Assembly: GCA_016186945.1 (NCBI GenBank) | Contig: JACPKR010000023.1 | Location: 1-18,748, forward strand | Length of the DNA stretch: 18,748 nucleotides | Direction: 5' to 3' | DNA from: Deltaproteobacteria bacterium | GTDB taxonomy: Bacteria > Bdellovibrionota_B > Oligoflexia > Oligoflexales > Bog-1112 | Shown here: piece by piece, positions 188-16,757 of the stretch | Layout: each line of letters starts with the position of its first letter | How positions within the stretch are numbered: position 1 is the first letter of the stretch | Position numbers and translations under genes: made by a program | Notes under the pieces: generated by a model | The model's input: only the letters and a program-made list of their open reading frames with translations | Databases searched by the model: none | What the model was told of the DNA's origin: nothing

Positions 188-1222
188 ATGCTTTACACCG
201 ATGTCATGATAGAAAGCCTCGCGTACGAATTGCCGGAAATGCGGAAATCCTCTGCAGATCTGGAAGAGCAACTTAAACCCCTGTATAACGCTCTCAGCTT
301 GTCCCCAGGTCTGCTGGAACTCATGACGGGGGTGAAGGAACGACGCCTCTGGCCTTCCCATCTGCCTCCTTCCCATTTGGCTGCAAGTGTTGCCGGACGC
401 GCCCTGCAGCAGTCTGGTATCGCTACCCGTGATATATCGCTTCTGATCTACACCGGCGTGTGCCGAGATTTTATCGAACCTGCGACGGCGCACATCATAC
501 ACCACCGGCTTAGCTTAGGGCGGGAGTGCCTAACGTTTGACCTTTCAAATGCGTGCGTAGGGTTCCTAAACGGTATGCTCATCGCGGCCAATATGATCGA
601 AAACGGGCAAGTGGAAAAAGCACTTATCGTGTCGGCAGAAAGCGCCAGCCCACTTTATGAAAAAACCATCGCAAGGCTTAACGATGACCCGACAGAACGA
701 GCATATCGCTCCTCTCTCGCTAGCCTGACGCTTGGTTCAGCTTCGGCAGCCGTAGTGTTGTCGAAAGCAAAGGGCGCTTACCCTCGTCTCTTGGGCGGTA
801 TTTCACGCACGGCAAGCGAACATCACACACTCTGTCAGGGCAGTGGTGACTTTCGCAATCCCTTCATGCGAACGGATTCCGTCAATCTTATGAAGGAAGG
901 ACTGAAACTTGCCAAACTTGCGTGGCAGGACTTCCTGGGGGAACTCAAGTGGGGAACTTCCACACCAGCTTGCATTTTGACTCACCAGGTTAGCCAATCT
1001 CATCATGCGAAATTTTTTGAAACCCTTGAACTCGACCCAAGTAGAGGGCAAAACGATCTGCCCTATCTAGGAAACACGGGAAGCGTCGCTGCCCCCCTCT
1101 CCTTAGCCCTTAGCGCAGAAGCAGGCCGTCTGCACGCAGGCGACAAAATCGCAATGTTGGGCATAGGGTCAGGACTCACCACACTGATGCTAGGACTGCA
1201 ATGGAACTACCCCCACAGCTAA
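188..1222 (+). CDS. oleA: OleA, thiolase-fold acyl-CoA condensing enzyme
   Basis: OleA performs the head-to-head, non-decarboxylative Claisen condensation of two fatty acyl-CoAs to a 2-alkyl-3-ketoacid, the first step of long-chain olefin synthesis in the cytoplasm. The protein has 344 residues, usual for the family, and the FabH-like thiolase fold. Its nucleophile is Cys123 in SNACVGF. The other active-site residues are His266 in THQVSQ and Asn296 in LGNTGS. Glu97 in CRDFIEPAT matches the glutamate that OleA contributes across the dimer interface as catalytic base. The end motif LGIGSGL is also typical. The start at 188 has the purine run GGGAAGAG upstream; ATG 206 is an alternative. It is the first gene of oleABCD and overlaps oleB by 22 bases. 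It is distinguished from FabH by this active-site set and by the neighbours. Confidence 0.95.
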   Translation: MLYTDVMIESLAYELPEMRKSSADLEEQLKPLYNALSLSPGLLELMTGVKERRLWPSHLPPSHLAASVAGRALQQSGIATRDISLLIYTGVCRDFIEPATAHIIHHRLSLGRECLTFDLSNACVGFLNGMLIAANMIENGQVEKALIVSAESASPLYEKTIARLNDDPTERAYRSSLASLTLGSASAAVVLSKAKGAYPRLLGGISRTASEHHTLCQGSGDFRNPFMRTDSVNLMKEGLKLAKLAWQDFLGELKWGTSTPACILTHQVSQSHHAKFFETLELDPSRGQNDLPYLGNTGSVAAPLSLALSAEAGRLHAGDKIAMLGIGSGLTTLMLGLQWNYPHS

Positions 1223-2076
1223 GAAAACATTTTCCCTTCTCCCCCCATTTTTTCTCTCTTAAAAAGAGTGGGCCTTCCGACTATCGGCTTCACTATATTG
1301 ACGAAGGACGGGGCGACCCCCTAGTGTGCCTGCACGGGAACCCCACCTGGAGCTTTTTCTATCGAAACTTGATCGGTGAATTGAAAGACCAGCACCGTGT
1401 TCTTGCGCTTGACCATTTGGGCTGCGGTCTTTCCGATCGTCCGGAAGATTTTTCGTACCGACTCAGCGATCACATCGAAAACCTCACGAACTTGATCGAG
1501 CACCTTGGTCTGGAGAACATTACCCTTGTCGTGCATGATTGGGGGGGAGCGATTGGCTTAGGCTGGGCGGTCCAAAACGCAGCAAAAGTCAAACGACTGA
1601 TCATTATGAACACAGCAGCTTTCCTTTCCCAGGATATCCCCAAAAGGATCGCATTACTTAAATTCTCCCCGCTTAGGGACTTACTCATACGCAGACTAAA
1701 CCTTTTTTGCCTGGGCGCAAACTTGATGGCATCTCACAGAGGTTTATCAAGGGATCTTGCCGACGCTTACCTGTTTCCTTATCGCTCTTATAGAGATCGC
1801 ATAGCAGTTTCGTGCTTTGTAAAAGATATTCCCCTCAAGCCCACCCACCCGACCTACGACGTTTTGAAAAATATAGAGGAGAAACTACCCTCCCTGAAAG
1901 TTCCCACGCTACTCCTTTGGGGAGCGAAGGACTTCTGTTTTCACACAGGTTTCTTGGACAGGTGGAAGTACGTATTTCCTCATGCAGAGAGCCTTGTGAT
2001 GGAAGAGGCCGGGCATTACCTCCTAGAGGATGAGCCGGTGCTAACCCTTGAACGCATCAGAAAGTTTTTGTCATGA
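1201..2076 (+). CDS. oleB: OleB, beta-lactone decarboxylase (alpha/beta hydrolase)
   Basis: OleB removes CO2 from the cis-beta-lactone made by OleC, giving the cis-olefin. It belongs to the haloalkane-dehalogenase branch of the alpha/beta hydrolases, and without the operon it would be annotated as a dehalogenase. Visible motifs are HGNPTWSF (residues 45-52, with the Asn/Trp pair of the family), the nucleophile elbow VVHDWGGA with Asp113, the acid Asp244 in WGAKD, and His272 in AGHYLLED. The length of 291 residues is normal. The ATG at 1201 lies inside the end of oleA and has AGGA five bases upstream. The gene overlaps oleC by four bases (ATGA), so translation is probably coupled. In some bacteria oleB and oleC are fused; here they are separate. 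Confidence 0.94.
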   Translation: MELPPQLRKHFPFSPHFFSLKKSGPSDYRLHYIDEGRGDPLVCLHGNPTWSFFYRNLIGELKDQHRVLALDHLGCGLSDRPEDFSYRLSDHIENLTNLIEHLGLENITLVVHDWGGAIGLGWAVQNAAKVKRLIIMNTAAFLSQDIPKRIALLKFSPLRDLLIRRLNLFCLGANLMASHRGLSRDLADAYLFPYRSYRDRIAVSCFVKDIPLKPTHPTYDVLKNIEEKLPSLKVPTLLLWGAKDFCFHTGFLDRWKYVFPHAESLVMEEAGHYLLEDEPVLTLERIRKFLS

Positions 2077-3743
2077 ACATAACGAGTCTGATTCACGACA
2101 ATGCGCGCCGTTTTCCCGACAGAAAGGCGATTATCGAAGACAAGACAGGTGCCTTTCTCAGTTTTCGTCAATTTTCTGAACAAGCCAATCAGGTCGCAGC
2201 AAATTTGCGATCCCATGGGGTGGGAAAAGGTTGCAAAGTAGCCTTTTTCGTAAAACCGTCCCTCGCCTTTCACACGACAATCTTCGCCCTGTTTCAGATC
2301 GGAGCCGTCCCTGTCTTCATTGACCCGGGGGTGGGGTGGAAGCAGCTCCTGGCAGCCGTCGGACAAGCAGCTCCAGAAGTCCTCATTGCGGAGCCATTGG
2401 TTCTTTTTGTTCGCAAGTTGTTTCGCAGTGTATTTGCCAGCGTAAAACTGGCTGTCAGTCCGAGACAAGTCGTGGGGGAGCGACGGTTCCCTCGCCCCCC
2501 CACCCCCCCCTCTCCCCTTTTCATTTTAGAGGACGATGTGGCAGCAATTATCTTCACCTCAGGTGCCACAGGGGCACCGAAGGGAGTCGTTTACACAAAC
2601 GGAAACTTCCAAACACAAGTTAAACTTCTTGCAAAGATACTTCCGACCGGAGAAGGGGACACAGACATTTCTTGTTTCCCCCTTTTCTCTCTCTTTTCCC
2701 TCGCACTGGGGATGAGCAGCGTCATTCCAGACATGAACCCGAGCAAACCTGCTCAAGTCGACGCTGGGAAAATTGTGAGAGCCATTCGACAGCACAACGC
2801 TGCACAGGCAACAGGTTCTTCAGCTATTTGGGAGCGTGTCGCTGACTTCTGCTTGGAGAAGGATCTGCAACTACCAAGTCTTCGAGGGATTCTAATGTTT
2901 GGCGCTCCTGTTTCCGTCTTGCTGCACCAGAAATTGAAGAAAGTTATGCCAGCCGGTTCCACTTACACCCCCTACGGAGCAACCGAGTGCCTTCCCGTCT
3001 CATGGATAAGCGGGGAGGAAATTCTGCACGACTGTCAGAACCTCACCTTGCAAGGCAAAGGCACCTGTGTAGGCACACCCTTTCCGGAAACCGACGTACT
3101 CATTATCAAAGAGACAGACGGACCCATCCCTGAGATCTCCCAGGTGGACGAATGTGCGCCTTTTTCCATCGGAGAAATTCTGGTGTCAGGGAAACAGACC
3201 ACCAGGGAGTATTTCCAGAAAAGAGACGCGACGGAACTCGCGAAAATCAAAGACCCCTCAGGACGCATCTGGCACCGGATGGGTGACCTTGGGTATAAAG
3301 ACGAACGCGGGCGCATCTGGTTCTGCGGGCGTAAAGTTCACAAGTTCGAGACCGAGGACGGCCCCGTTTTCCCCATCATGGGCGAGGCTATTTTCAATCA
3401 AGATCCCGAGGTGAAAAGGACCGCTATCGTCGGTCTCTTGAATGGCACCACGCCTTGTTTGGTCGTGGAAAGAAAAGACGGACGGACAAAACTTTCAAAA
3501 AAAGAACGAATGAAATTTCATTCTGAGTTACTTGCCTTGGGAGCAAGGCACAAATTGACAGCAAAGATCCAATCCATTGTATTTCACAATAGCTTTCCGG
3601 TAGACTACCGTCATAACATAAAAATAGACAGAATTGCATTGCGAGATCAGATTATATTATCTGAGAAAAGGAATTTGTGGAGAGGACCTTTTTTGAAAAA
3701 AAGTTCCCCTCCACACCTCCCCCCAAAAAACTTTAGATATTGA
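2073..3743 (+). CDS. oleC: OleC, beta-lactone synthetase (AMP-ligase fold)
   Basis: OleC uses ATP to close the 2-alkyl-3-hydroxyacid made by OleA and OleD to a beta-lactone. It has the acyl-adenylate ligase fold: phosphate-binding loop TSGATGAPKGV (162-172), YGATE (301-305), GDLGY (404-408), and the C-terminal HNIKIDR with Lys517 in the place of the family lysine. There are 556 residues. Two segments do not look native. Residues 134-150, rich in proline and arginine, are encoded by a C-rich repeat also present between genes at 4819 and 14404. About the last 23 to 29 residues and the stop are encoded by a second repeat found inverted at 10709-10782. The motifs on both sides of the internal insert are intact, so the enzyme is probably functional. 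Confidence 0.93.
   Translation: MNITSLIHDNARRFPDRKAIIEDKTGAFLSFRQFSEQANQVAANLRSHGVGKGCKVAFFVKPSLAFHTTIFALFQIGAVPVFIDPGVGWKQLLAAVGQAAPEVLIAEPLVLFVRKLFRSVFASVKLAVSPRQVVGERRFPRPPTPPSPLFILEDDVAAIIFTSGATGAPKGVVYTNGNFQTQVKLLAKILPTGEGDTDISCFPLFSLFSLALGMSSVIPDMNPSKPAQVDAGKIVRAIRQHNAAQATGSSAIWERVADFCLEKDLQLPSLRGILMFGAPVSVLLHQKLKKVMPAGSTYTPYGATECLPVSWISGEEILHDCQNLTLQGKGTCVGTPFPETDVLIIKETDGPIPEISQVDECAPFSIGEILVSGKQTTREYFQKRDATELAKIKDPSGRIWHRMGDLGYKDERGRIWFCGRKVHKFETEDGPVFPIMGEAIFNQDPEVKRTAIVGLLNGTTPCLVVERKDGRTKLSKKERMKFHSELLALGARHKLTAKIQSIVFHNSFPVDYRHNIKIDRIALRDQIILSEKRNLWRGPFLKKSSPPHLPPKNFRY
2474..2521. repeat. C-rich hairpin repeat inside oleC
   Basis: These 48 bases match 4819-4866 at 45 of 48 positions without gaps, and a more diverged copy lies at 14404-14452. 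Each begins GGGGAGCGA, forms a stem with TCGCCCCCC (one bulged A in two copies), and continues as a C-rich stretch ending in TCTCCC and a T run. In oleC the element is in frame, contributes no stop, and encodes Val134 to Phe150. The opposite strand holds four long G runs that could form a G-quadruplex. Confidence 0.85.
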
Positions 3744-3751
3744 ATACTATA
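3653..3751. repeat. MITE-like element, copy 1, spanning the oleC 3' end
   Basis: The core at 3671-3744 matches the reverse complement of 10709-10782 at 73 of 74 positions. Its ends read TATATT and ACTATA, near-inverted and TA-rich, resembling the TATAGT/ACTATA ends of copy 2. The core folds into a long hairpin with arms 3676-3694 and 3696-3715 (about 17 of 19 pairs). It encodes the OleC tail and stop (TGA at 3741-3743) and ends just before the oleD ribosome binding site. Outer borders are less certain than the core. Confidence 0.75.
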
Positions 3752-3769: not shown

Positions 3770-4756
3770 ATGGAGAAAGTTTTAGTCACAGGCGGTGGAG
3801 GATTCCTAGGAACAGAGATCTGTAAACAACTCAAGGACAAGGGTTACGACGTCACAAGCTACTCCCGGAAATCTTACCCCCACCTTAGCAAGATGGGGAT
3901 TCGATGCATGCAAGGTTCAGTAACGTCGAGGGAAGATTTGGGCTATGCGATGAAAGGGAAAGACGCCGTCATTCATACAGCAGCCTTGGCAGGGGTGTGG
4001 GGACGACATAAGGACTTCTACGACGCTAATGTCGTGGGGACACAGAACGTTTTGGACGTTATGGAGACACTGGGCATCCCGCGCTTGGTCTACACAAGTT
4101 CTCCTAGTGTTGTCTTTGCGGGGAAGGATATTACCGGCCAAAGTGAAGAGGAACTTTCTTATCCAACTCAGTCGATGGGAAGCTATCCTGACACAAAAGT
4201 GGAAGCAGAAAAACGAGTCCTGGCAACGCATGGAAAAAAGAACTTTGTCAGCGTAGCAATTCGCCCCCATCATATTCTTGGATCTGGTGACCCTCACTTC
4301 CTCCCTCGCATCAAGGAGAAGGCGAAGCGGGGGATGCTTAAGAAAGTTGGGGATCTGAATAACATGATCGACGTTACTTACGTCGGCAATGCCGCGCTTG
4401 CACATATTCTGGCATTGGAAGCTCTGACACCGAGATCCCCACTGGGAGGCAAAGCGTATTTTGTGGCACAGGAGCGTCCTGTGAACCTGTGGGAATTCGT
4501 CGATACGATGATCGACAAGTTTGGCTTGCCCGCGATCAAGGGACGAATCTCCTTTCAGACAGCATGGATCCTTGGCATAACCTTGGAGACGGTTTACAGG
4601 ACTCTAGGAATTTATAAGAAAGAGCCACCTATGACACGGCTCATCGCGTTCAGTACGGCACGGTCTCACTATTTTAGCCATGCGGCTGCCAAACGAGATT
4701 TTGGTTATATACCTCGGGTGTCGTTAGAAGAATGCATGCAGAAAATAATGCGCTAG
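3770..4756 (+). CDS. oleD: OleD, NADPH-dependent 2-alkyl-3-ketoacid reductase
   Basis: OleD reduces the OleA product 2-alkyl-3-ketoalkanoate to the hydroxyacid used by OleC. It is an extended short-chain dehydrogenase of the NAD-dependent epimerase/3-beta-HSD type. The nucleotide-binding loop TGGGGFLG is at residues 7-14 and the catalytic YxxxK is Tyr139/Lys143 in SYPDTK, preceded by the serine motif YTSSPS (around 108-113). The length is 328 residues. The start at 3770 is chosen because of AGAGAGGA upstream and because the Rossmann strand then begins at residue 3. The gap of 26 bases to oleC is occupied by the end of a repeat element, unlike the overlapping oleA-B-C junctions. Translation here therefore relies on its own ribosome binding site. 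It ends convergent to lysR. Confidence 0.94.
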   Translation: MEKVLVTGGGGFLGTEICKQLKDKGYDVTSYSRKSYPHLSKMGIRCMQGSVTSREDLGYAMKGKDAVIHTAALAGVWGRHKDFYDANVVGTQNVLDVMETLGIPRLVYTSSPSVVFAGKDITGQSEEELSYPTQSMGSYPDTKVEAEKRVLATHGKKNFVSVAIRPHHILGSGDPHFLPRIKEKAKRGMLKKVGDLNNMIDVTYVGNAALAHILALEALTPRSPLGGKAYFVAQERPVNLWEFVDTMIDKFGLPAIKGRISFQTAWILGITLETVYRTLGIYKKEPPMTRLIAFSTARSHYFSHAAAKRDFGYIPRVSLEECMQKIMR

Positions 4757-4758
4757 CC

Positions 4759-4898
4759 GCTTGTGGCAAGGAGGTGGTCTGGAGGAAACTGCGCAGCTGG
4801 TTCCTCCAGGACTTCCTTGGGGGAGCGACGGTTCCCTCGCCCCCCCAAACCCCCCTCTCCCTTTTTGCCAAAAGCCAAACCACCTTTTTGCCACAAGC
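4759..4898. repeat. 140-bp palindrome-bounded element between oleD and lysR
   Basis: The element is bounded by 24-base inverted ends (4759-4782 and 4875-4898, 21 of 24 matching) that start GCTTGTGGCAAGGAGG. Inside are the imperfect palindrome around GGAGGAAACTGCGCAGC and GGTTCCTCC, and the 48-base C-rich hairpin repeat (4819-4866). A shorter relative without the C-rich part lies at 16511-16610. It fills the space between two convergent genes, three bases after the oleD stop and four before the lysR stop. It could act as a transcription terminator in both directions. No transposase is encoded. Confidence 0.8.
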
Positions 4899-10633: not shown

Positions 10634-10813
10634 TATAGTATTGAAGATAGTCAATTTGGGGACAAACTTTTTGAAAAAAGTTCTTTCCCCAACCCCCTTT
10701 TCAAAAACTTCAATATCTAGAGTTTTTTGGGGGGAGGTGTGGAGGGGAACTTTTTTTCAAAAAAGGTCCTCTCCACAAATTCTTTCTCCCAAATTCTATT
10801 TCTCAAAGACTAT
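10634..10813. repeat. MITE-like element, copy 2, between pbp1 and the htrA-like gene
   Basis: The ends are TATAGT and ACTATA, continued by loosely matching inverted sequence. This layout resembles miniature elements of the IS630/Tc1-mariner type that use a TA target. The segment 10709-10782 is the inverted 74-base core shared with the oleC end. Compared with copy 1, 68 extra bases (10643-10710) follow TATAGTATT; they contain a hairpin bounded by GGGG and CCCC (10658-10690). The element occupies most of the 249-base space between two divergent genes, so promoters for both must lie in or beside it. I saw no convincing sigma-70 site. Confidence 0.7.
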
Positions 10814-11932: not shown

Positions 11933-12066
11933 CCTCCACTGTCATCCCGCGGCCTCCACTGTCATCCCGCGGCCTCCACTGTCATCCCGCGGCCTCCACT
12001 GTCATCCCGCGGCCTCCACTGTCATCCCGCGGCCTCCACTGTCATCCCGCGGCTTGACCGCGGGAT
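11933..12066. repeat. 20-base tandem array ending in a full palindrome
   Basis: The unit GTCATCCCGCGGCCTCCACT is repeated exactly five times from 11941 to 12040 and preceded by its last eight bases at 11933. At 12041 a sixth unit runs into the complete palindrome with arms 12044-12052 and 12058-12066 (loop CTTGA). Each unit contains only the left half of the palindrome, so the array looks like slippage expansion of a broken copy. It begins directly after the htrA-like stop and the final palindrome enters the putP coding end. The long stem could stop transcription from both convergent genes, but there is no T run. Confidence 0.9.
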
Positions 12067-13445
12067 CCAACGGCACCTACAGTTGGGTTCCCCCGCGTGA
12101 ACTTGGAAACCAGGAAAATGACGCCAAGACTCCCAAAAAATCCAGGAATCATGGGCGCATCCGCAAAAACCCAACCCGTCAAGGGCCACAGAGCTGCTAG
12201 TAGGGCACCAGACGTCATCCCCGCAAAAGCTCCCCATTTTGTAAGCCCACGGTAATACAGGCTGCACAGGACTATCGGTCCAAATGTGCTCCCTTGCCCA
12301 GACCAAGCGTAACGCACGATTTCATAAACCGACTGAGAGTTTGTAAGCGTGATCACCGCCGCAATCGAAGTCTGACATACAATCGAAAGACGCGACGACA
12401 ACATGGAACGACGTTCCGTCAAGGCATTCACAATATCCTTGGTCACAACAGAAGCAGATACAATAATCTGCGAGTCAACTGTGGACAGTGTTGCTGCCAC
12501 CACACCGCAGAAAATAAACCCAGCAGCAAGAGGAGAAAAAAGCTGGTTCACCATATTCAAAAAAAGATATTGAGGCACTTCCAGCCGGTCCTTGAAAAAG
12601 ACCCACCCTAAAATGCCAATCGATACGGCAGCAGATAAAGCAAGGAACTGCCAGGCCAGACCAAGACGCATAGACTTCTTCAATTCCTCGGCTTTGCGAA
12701 TCCCCATAAACTTCGTTAACACGTGAGGCATACCGAAATAGCCTAAACCCCAGTTCAAGGCCACTTTCACAGCCTGGGAAACGGAGTGCGCTTCCCCAAA
12801 TGTGAACCCATCCCCAATCGTCATCCCGTCAGGCAATGAGAAAAATGCAAAGATGGGAACTACCAAAATAGCCAGAAGCAAGAAAACTGCCTGGAACGCA
12901 TCCGTAAACGCCACAGTCATATACCCACCCAGCGTTGTGTAGACAATAACAAGCAGAGCACTTAAAAGAACACCCCCCAACATGGGGATCCCAAAGAGCG
13001 CCTCAAGGACAGTTCCCATGCCCTGCAAACCAGATGCTATGTAAAATGTAAAGAAAAAGAGAGAAGCAAAAGCAGCAGTTAATGAAATCAAACGTGTCTG
13101 ATCACCCACCCTTGCGGAAAAAAAGTGAGACAGGGTTATACTTCCCGTCTCCTCCGTGCTGATACGTAAGCGAGGAGCAACAAATTTCCACGTGAGAGCC
13201 ATTCCCAGCAGAAGACCGACAGCGACCCAGGCTTCCGAAATCCCTATGGTGTAGATCGCAACAGGAAAACCAAGGAATAACCAACTGCTCATATCACTGG
13301 CATGAGCTGACAAAGCGGTAACCCAATAACTTATCTTGCGACTGCCGATCAGAAAATCATCAGCCTTCTGATCCCTTCGGTAGCTGACAACACCGATACT
13401 CACAAGAACGAGACCGTAGACAGCGAACGCAACAAATAATGACAT
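12042..13445 (-). CDS. putP: PutP-type sodium/proline (solute) symporter
   Basis: This inner-membrane transporter of the sodium:solute symporter family has the long hydrophobic segments expected of about 12-13 helices over 467 residues. PutP signatures are SSWLFLGFPVAIY near residue 53, GLGYFGMPHVLTKFM, and AATLSTVDSQIIVSAS, which carries the Ser/Thr residues of the sodium site. Proline is the most likely substrate, but related members carry other organic acids. The ATG at 13445 has GAGG upstream. The protein ends in TVGAVGSRGQAAG: the last eight residues (GSRGQAAG) and the TGA stop are encoded by the ATCCCGCGG palindrome. The original end appears to have been replaced or extended by the repeat. 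Confidence 0.9.
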   Translation of the reverse strand: MSLFVAFAVYGLVLVSIGVVSYRRDQKADDFLIGSRKISYWVTALSAHASDMSSWLFLGFPVAIYTIGISEAWVAVGLLLGMALTWKFVAPRLRISTEETGSITLSHFFSARVGDQTRLISLTAAFASLFFFTFYIASGLQGMGTVLEALFGIPMLGGVLLSALLVIVYTTLGGYMTVAFTDAFQAVFLLLAILVVPIFAFFSLPDGMTIGDGFTFGEAHSVSQAVKVALNWGLGYFGMPHVLTKFMGIRKAEELKKSMRLGLAWQFLALSAAVSIGILGWVFFKDRLEVPQYLFLNMVNQLFSPLAAGFIFCGVVAATLSTVDSQIIVSASVVTKDIVNALTERRSMLSSRLSIVCQTSIAAVITLTNSQSVYEIVRYAWSGQGSTFGPIVLCSLYYRGLTKWGAFAGMTSGALLAALWPLTGWVFADAPMIPGFFGSLGVIFLVSKFTRGNPTVGAVGSRGQAAG

Positions 13446-14372: not shown

Positions 14373-14403
14373 TCTAGGGGGTTCCTGCGGATGGCTTTTT
14401 CGA

Positions 14404-14452
14404 GGGGAGCGACAATTCTCTCGCCCCCCTCGCGCTCCCCCTCTCCCTTTTT
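14404..14452. repeat. C-rich hairpin repeat between the DUF4360-like genes
   Basis: This is a diverged copy of the elements at 2474 and 4819: GGGGAGCGA pairs with TCGCCCCCC, followed by a C-rich stretch, CTCTCCC and TTTTT. The hairpin with T run may weaken read-through between the two genes. Its end lies six bases before the ribosome binding site of the second gene. Confidence 0.75.
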
Positions 14453-16510: not shown

Positions 16511-16610
16511 GGCAAGGAGGTGGTTTGCAGGAGTGGCAAGGAGGTGGTTTGGAGGAAACTGCGCAGCTGGTTCCTCCAAGAAGTCCCTGTGTCAAACCAC
16601 CTCCTTGCCG
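16511..16610. repeat. Palindromic element, short form
   Basis: A perfect 17-base inverted repeat (16535-16551 and 16593-16609, GGCAAGGAGGTGGTTTG) encloses the imperfect palindrome from GGAGGAAACTGCGCAGC to GGTTCCTCC. A further direct copy of the left end lies at 16511-16527. It is the short relative of the element at 4759-4898 and lacks the C-rich 48-base part. Confidence 0.8.
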
Positions 16611-16757
16611 CAGGCGCAACAAAACAGTATGATAGTTGTTGATTTTCATGAAAAATAACAACTAAGGTGCGGCTTATGTTTTTTCGTACATTGAAACTTG
16701 CTAATTTACCGTCTATCGCCGTAATGCCCCCGAAATTCATTCGTGGGGATATAAGGC

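Follow-up and report, generated by a model that had tools for sequence, protein, structure and literature searches.

How does a hairpin repeat whose copies lie mostly between genes come to be read as protein inside an enzyme, and does it there add to the protein or stand in for something that was lost? The window, by which we mean the whole 18,748-nucleotide stretch analysed here, raises this question in its oleC gene, which sits in an oleABCD gene order; it makes up all of contig 13 of a 2.66 Mb draft genome (76 contigs, 91% complete). The genes and hairpin copies needed to follow the argument are these:

188..1222, plus strand: oleA, 3-oxoacyl-ACP synthase III family
1201..2076, plus strand: oleB, alpha/beta hydrolase, haloalkane dehalogenase-like
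2073..3743, plus strand: oleC, AMP-binding, olefin beta-lactone synthetase-like, 556 aa (PF00501 and NF006754/NF045786 matches)
2474..2521, plus strand: core-only copy of the hairpin repeat (subfamily A), translated in the oleC frame as residues 134-150
3770..4756, plus strand: oleD, 2-alkyl-3-oxoalkanoate reductase (NF042422)
4819..4866, plus strand: hairpin core within a larger copy, 45/48 identical to the oleC copy
14402..14450, plus strand: diverged core-only copy between two genes, with a compensated stem (CGAG..CTCG)

A genome-specific hairpin family read in frame in oleC

An earlier note on this DNA had reported that a 48-mer within oleC recurs at 4819 and 14404 and is read in frame just before the ATP-binding loop. 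Both statements hold, with the qualification that the 14404 copy is more diverged (73% against the 48-mer at 2474-2521, ungapped). In OleC the repeat-coded segment stands in the context VV-GERRFPRPPTPPSP-LF, the peptide sequence there being GERRFPRPPTPPSPLFILEDD, and it ends about 10 residues before the ATP-binding loop, FTSGATGAPKG. The DNA at 2474-2521 folds into a hairpin (-22.7 kcal/mol, z -3.2), and a covariance model of the core gives 73.8, 78.8 and 63.5 bits to the copies at 2474, 4819 and 14404, the first and the last of which are among the rows on which the model was trained.

The earlier note had also proposed counting the genomic copies and those inside genes. With up to 3 mismatches allowed, the degenerate core is found at 98 + 104 places genome-wide (2.66 Mb), while a reversed-pattern control is found at 0, which rules out a chance similarity of C-rich DNA. 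The family thereby amounts to about 200 copies, and 186 distinct ones were collected. Subfamily A (GGGAGCGACGGTTCCCTCGCCCCCC) occurs at 62 + 62 places, and the place counts of subfamily B (GGAGGCGACGCTTCACTCGCCCCCC) overlap with those of subfamily A. Outside this genome, subfamily A was found in 0 of 55 related genomes, the same-genus genome included; of 19 relatives searched with the core model, only one gave matches, two weak ones (best E 2e-4); the exact core gave no match in other named genomes or in viral contigs, the full element described below none in plasmids, and an Rfam search of the window none. The oleC 48-mer is one copy of a genome-specific hairpin family.

It could perhaps be argued that the junctions themselves are at fault, in that repeats were collapsed or misjoined and the boundary in oleC, or in the ABC transporter gene discussed below, is false. 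A 76-contig, 91% complete draft with hundreds of near-identical short repeats invites such errors, and two genes lack native sequence next to the repeat. Nevertheless, we regard this as very improbable, because the core is only about 50 bp long, roughly 200 copies (up to 146 bp) were crossed in just 76 contigs, the two flanks of the oleC copy are parts of a single oleC that stays in frame within the oleABCD order, and the copy carries private differences from the consensus.

The mobile element and its bare core

In most of the 186 stacked copies, the core sits midway in an element of 144-146 bp that is bounded by 25-bp terminal inverted repeats with GTAA ends, GTAATGCGTAAGCCACTTGGGGCAA and its complement. 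An 8-bp target-site duplication (at least 7/8 identity) flanks 26 of the 66 elements that have both ends, as against 0.1% of mismatched pairs. By its length, its GTAA ends and its 8-bp duplications, the full element is a mobile MITE with IS66-like ends. GTAA ends and 8-bp direct repeats characterize IS66 (PMC11946415), and the likeness to IS66 insertion sequences and MITEs covers the inverted repeats of about 25 bp starting with GTAA and the 8-bp direct repeats, whereas the large structured hairpin and the failure to find an IS66 transposase in the draft set the present element apart. Because the IS66 transposase (PF03050) had no match in the 91%-complete draft genome, an IS66 origin stays a resemblance, and the parent may be lost or unassembled. 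The window holds two parts of this picture:

4759..4898, no strand assigned: larger palindromic copy 3' of oleD, with arms at 4759-4782 and 4875-4898 and the hairpin core midway
16533..16616, no strand assigned: copy of the outer palindrome of the MITE, lacking the hairpin core

Given the second of these, outer palindrome and core can occur apart. The core does so in 27 copies that lack the MITE ends, those at 2474 and 14404 included, and the stem ends of such copies include TTGG/CCAA, CGAG/CTCG, CCTG/CAG and TCAG/CTGA. Direct repeats or target-site duplications flanking bare cores are at background (2 vs 1.2 expected). Nine of the 27 core-only copies lie inside predicted genes, compared with 2 of the 122 full elements (Fisher 2.6e-6; 5e-5 per locus), with gene calls taken from a home-made hexamer score and five internal cases of a core in a gene verified or inspected. 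A minus-strand ORF seemed to span the 14404 copy, but it runs antisense to a probable gene and was left out of the coding count. The earlier note had pointed out that the repeat has no stop in the oleC frame; this is correct, but since the core is stop-free in all six frames, the open frame in oleC is nothing special.

Is the hairpin then kept for a function in RNA or DNA, such as 3' end protection, pausing or a G-quadruplex, and does it tune oleC expression? Several features would accord with such a role. The stem covaries: among 24 rows picked for diversity, 18 cells are doubly changed, whereas shuffles give 7.7 and slid controls no more than 8. These changes may go back to about three independent events, and neither the doubly changed pairs, of which there are 5, nor the pair types outnumber those in shuffles. 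A G-quadruplex motif is present on the minus strand of 175 of the 186 copies, and among intergenic bare cores convergent spaces outnumber divergent ones 8:1. Conserved structure would, however, be equally expected if a mobilising machinery recognises the hairpin, and full elements have no placement bias (20 convergent vs 30 divergent). There is also no T-run directly 3' of the stem, on which ground a reading as an intrinsic terminator was dropped. Overall, we consider maintenance for such a function improbable.

The OleC linker and other proteins that carry the core

The earlier note had taken residues 134-150 to be an added insertion, and here our comparison departs from it. Measured from the conserved VK to VAAI, the OleC linker comprises 32 residues and is shorter than is typical of 16 homologues, where it spans 30-48 (median 39.5; 42 in the same-genus OleC) and is equally short in two cases (30 and 32). 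As about 16 of the 32 residues are repeat-encoded, only some 16 native ones are left, and since the homologues have 30-48 residues in all, it would seem that native linker was lost. Replacement of part of the native linker, not a net insertion, fits these sequences better. A segment of equal length that aligns well in repeat-free orthologues had been named as evidence against an insertion; the length does agree, but the segment is hypervariable among the homologues and not alignable. The closest OleC in the comparison is about 50% identical.

In the AlphaFold model of OleC (mean pLDDT 87.7), confidence falls below 50 only at residues 136-140 and 535-556, and a search of solved structures with the OleC alignment returned distant adenylating enzymes only. 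The OleC-family invariant columns were computed with the present protein included, so that their presence in it holds by construction. The protein is presumably made and active.

Our preferred reading, to which we would give a probability of about 0.7, is that a REP-like hairpin, mostly borne by the MITE, became coding sequence in oleC as a bare core that replaced linker, and that it is likely a neutral or slightly harmful passenger. The 48-mer would be a REP-like unit, consisting of a stem-loop and a C-rich tail, that multiplied in this species with the 144-146 bp MITE, the hairpin at its centre, as its main vehicle and with bare cores as a minority. In oleC, such a bare core would have come to encode about 16 residues of an exposed, length-variable linker, with native residues displaced. 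The order of these events, like the way in which bare cores move, we infer: either core insertion was followed by deletion of flanking linker, or the core patched a deletion. OleC would tolerate the repeat since its effective length is divisible by three, none of its frames contains a stop and the loop lies outside the fold. Within OleC the core is most likely a selfish passenger, neutral or slightly harmful and with no function of its own.

The same element is read in frame in several further proteins, namely a glycosyltransferase, MoeA, an ABC transporter and a PilT-like ATPase, and the peptides that it encodes differ (GERRFPRPP in OleC, RERGVWGGEGTVAPP in the glycosyltransferase, KGEGGLGGRGNRRSP in MoeA). 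The glycosyltransferase has a clean insertion of about 33 residues that is present neither in its same-genus homologue nor in 12 others. MoeA has the core close to its N-terminus: about 15 residues are repeat-coded there, and the alignable part begins at residue 34 vs 29 in E. coli MoeA. Two core copies occupy the place at which all homologues of the ABC transporter have the first nucleotide-binding domain, and this gene may be decaying; its ORF lies at L191:593-2818 on the minus strand and has a second repeat family, described below, at its N-terminus. In the PilT-like ATPase (L136:799-2682), the N-terminal linker, a region that varies across all homologues, contains a local duplication in which subfamily A and B cores stand in tandem, with PSPPQAPLSL repeats. 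Three proteins named by eye, an alanine racemase, an aspartokinase and a dUTPase-like protein, also appear to be lengthened by elements at their C-termini.

These cases bear on whether the core simply entered an OleC whose linker was already as short as about 16 residues, with no loss at all. OleC linkers do vary in length (30-48), and a plain insertion of this kind is seen in the glycosyltransferase. Yet the ancestor would then have had a linker of about 16 residues, half as long as the shortest among the 16 homologues, and native sequence is also missing at the repeat in MoeA and the ABC transporter, which makes this reading rather unlikely for OleC. Apparently missing native residues at the repeat in OleC, MoeA and the ABC transporter could alternatively mean that the bare core does not insert by transposition but is copied in when breaks or deletions are repaired, so that gaps in the coding sequence are filled with stop-free, frame-compatible DNA. 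We entertain this only tentatively; if true, the core would repeatedly supply this species with new protein loops.

Known repeat families and the other repeats of the window

Whichever way the bare cores arrived, what we describe is a real and recurrent in-frame capture of a mobile hairpin, like Rickettsia palindromic elements (RPEs) and intragenic REPs. RPEs are repetitive palindromes that lie in frame within many unrelated genes, and the first RPE family measures about 150 bp and has 44 insertions (reviewed in PMC10969869). The resemblance to RPEs that the earlier note saw is borne out by in-frame copies in five unrelated proteins, with palindromes apparently tolerated at loops. The differences are that it is the 48-50 bp core alone that is frequent within genes here, and not the complete element, that there is no conserved reading frame or single peptide, different frames and both strands being used, and that most copies are intergenic. 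As the earlier note held, the family probably also differs in sequence from the RPEs; the exact core was absent from all other named genomes.

Tagged REPs are short, high-copy hairpin repeats that favour 3' ends and convergent spaces and are sometimes intragenic and in frame, the intragenic in-frame cases being from O. terrae, Thauera and R. conorii (PMC3733652). Like the tagged REPs of the GTAG/CGTC super-families, the core is a high-copy, imperfect palindrome of 20-40 bp, and core-only copies are similarly placed, sometimes within genes. Unlike them, it has a conserved C-rich tail and is mostly carried inside a MITE. An unpaired GTAG or CGTC tag is absent from the stem ends, as inspected in the consensus and the core alignment; the core is not a tagged REP. 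The Y1_Tnp profile (RAYT, Y1 family) matches four times in the genome, each time in an open frame of between 60 and 157 aa, with no link made to the repeat.

Rickettsia is the best-known host of palindromic repeats in frame, and other REP-rich genomes have yielded scattered reports. Here one genome combines a mobile carrier that has target-site duplications with a bare core strongly enriched inside genes, and the protein comparisons point to pure insertion as well as loop replacement; insertion and repair patching can therefore be told apart with sister strains.

OleC also ends in repeat sequence of another kind:

3654..3744, plus strand: second, unrelated palindromic repeat, coding for the last ~29 OleC residues and the stop codon

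The low-confidence tail at 535-556 in the AlphaFold model is encoded by this second family, which has an inverted copy at 10709-10799 and 40 close copies in the genome. It, too, consists of a hairpin and a C-rich tail, with TATAGTATT-like ends, and it occurs in about ten further ORFs, where it forms N- or C-terminal segments or joins two fused coding stretches. In an 886-residue ORF (L346:197-2854, minus strand), for instance, it links two stretches that resemble separate outer-membrane-type proteins. A third palindromic repeat (GTCATCCCGCGGCTTGACCGCGGGATC) is present at 1-146 and 11933-12069 of the window in direct and inverted copies, and adjoining it is a perfect 20-bp tandem repeat, CCTCCACTGTCATCCCGCGG.
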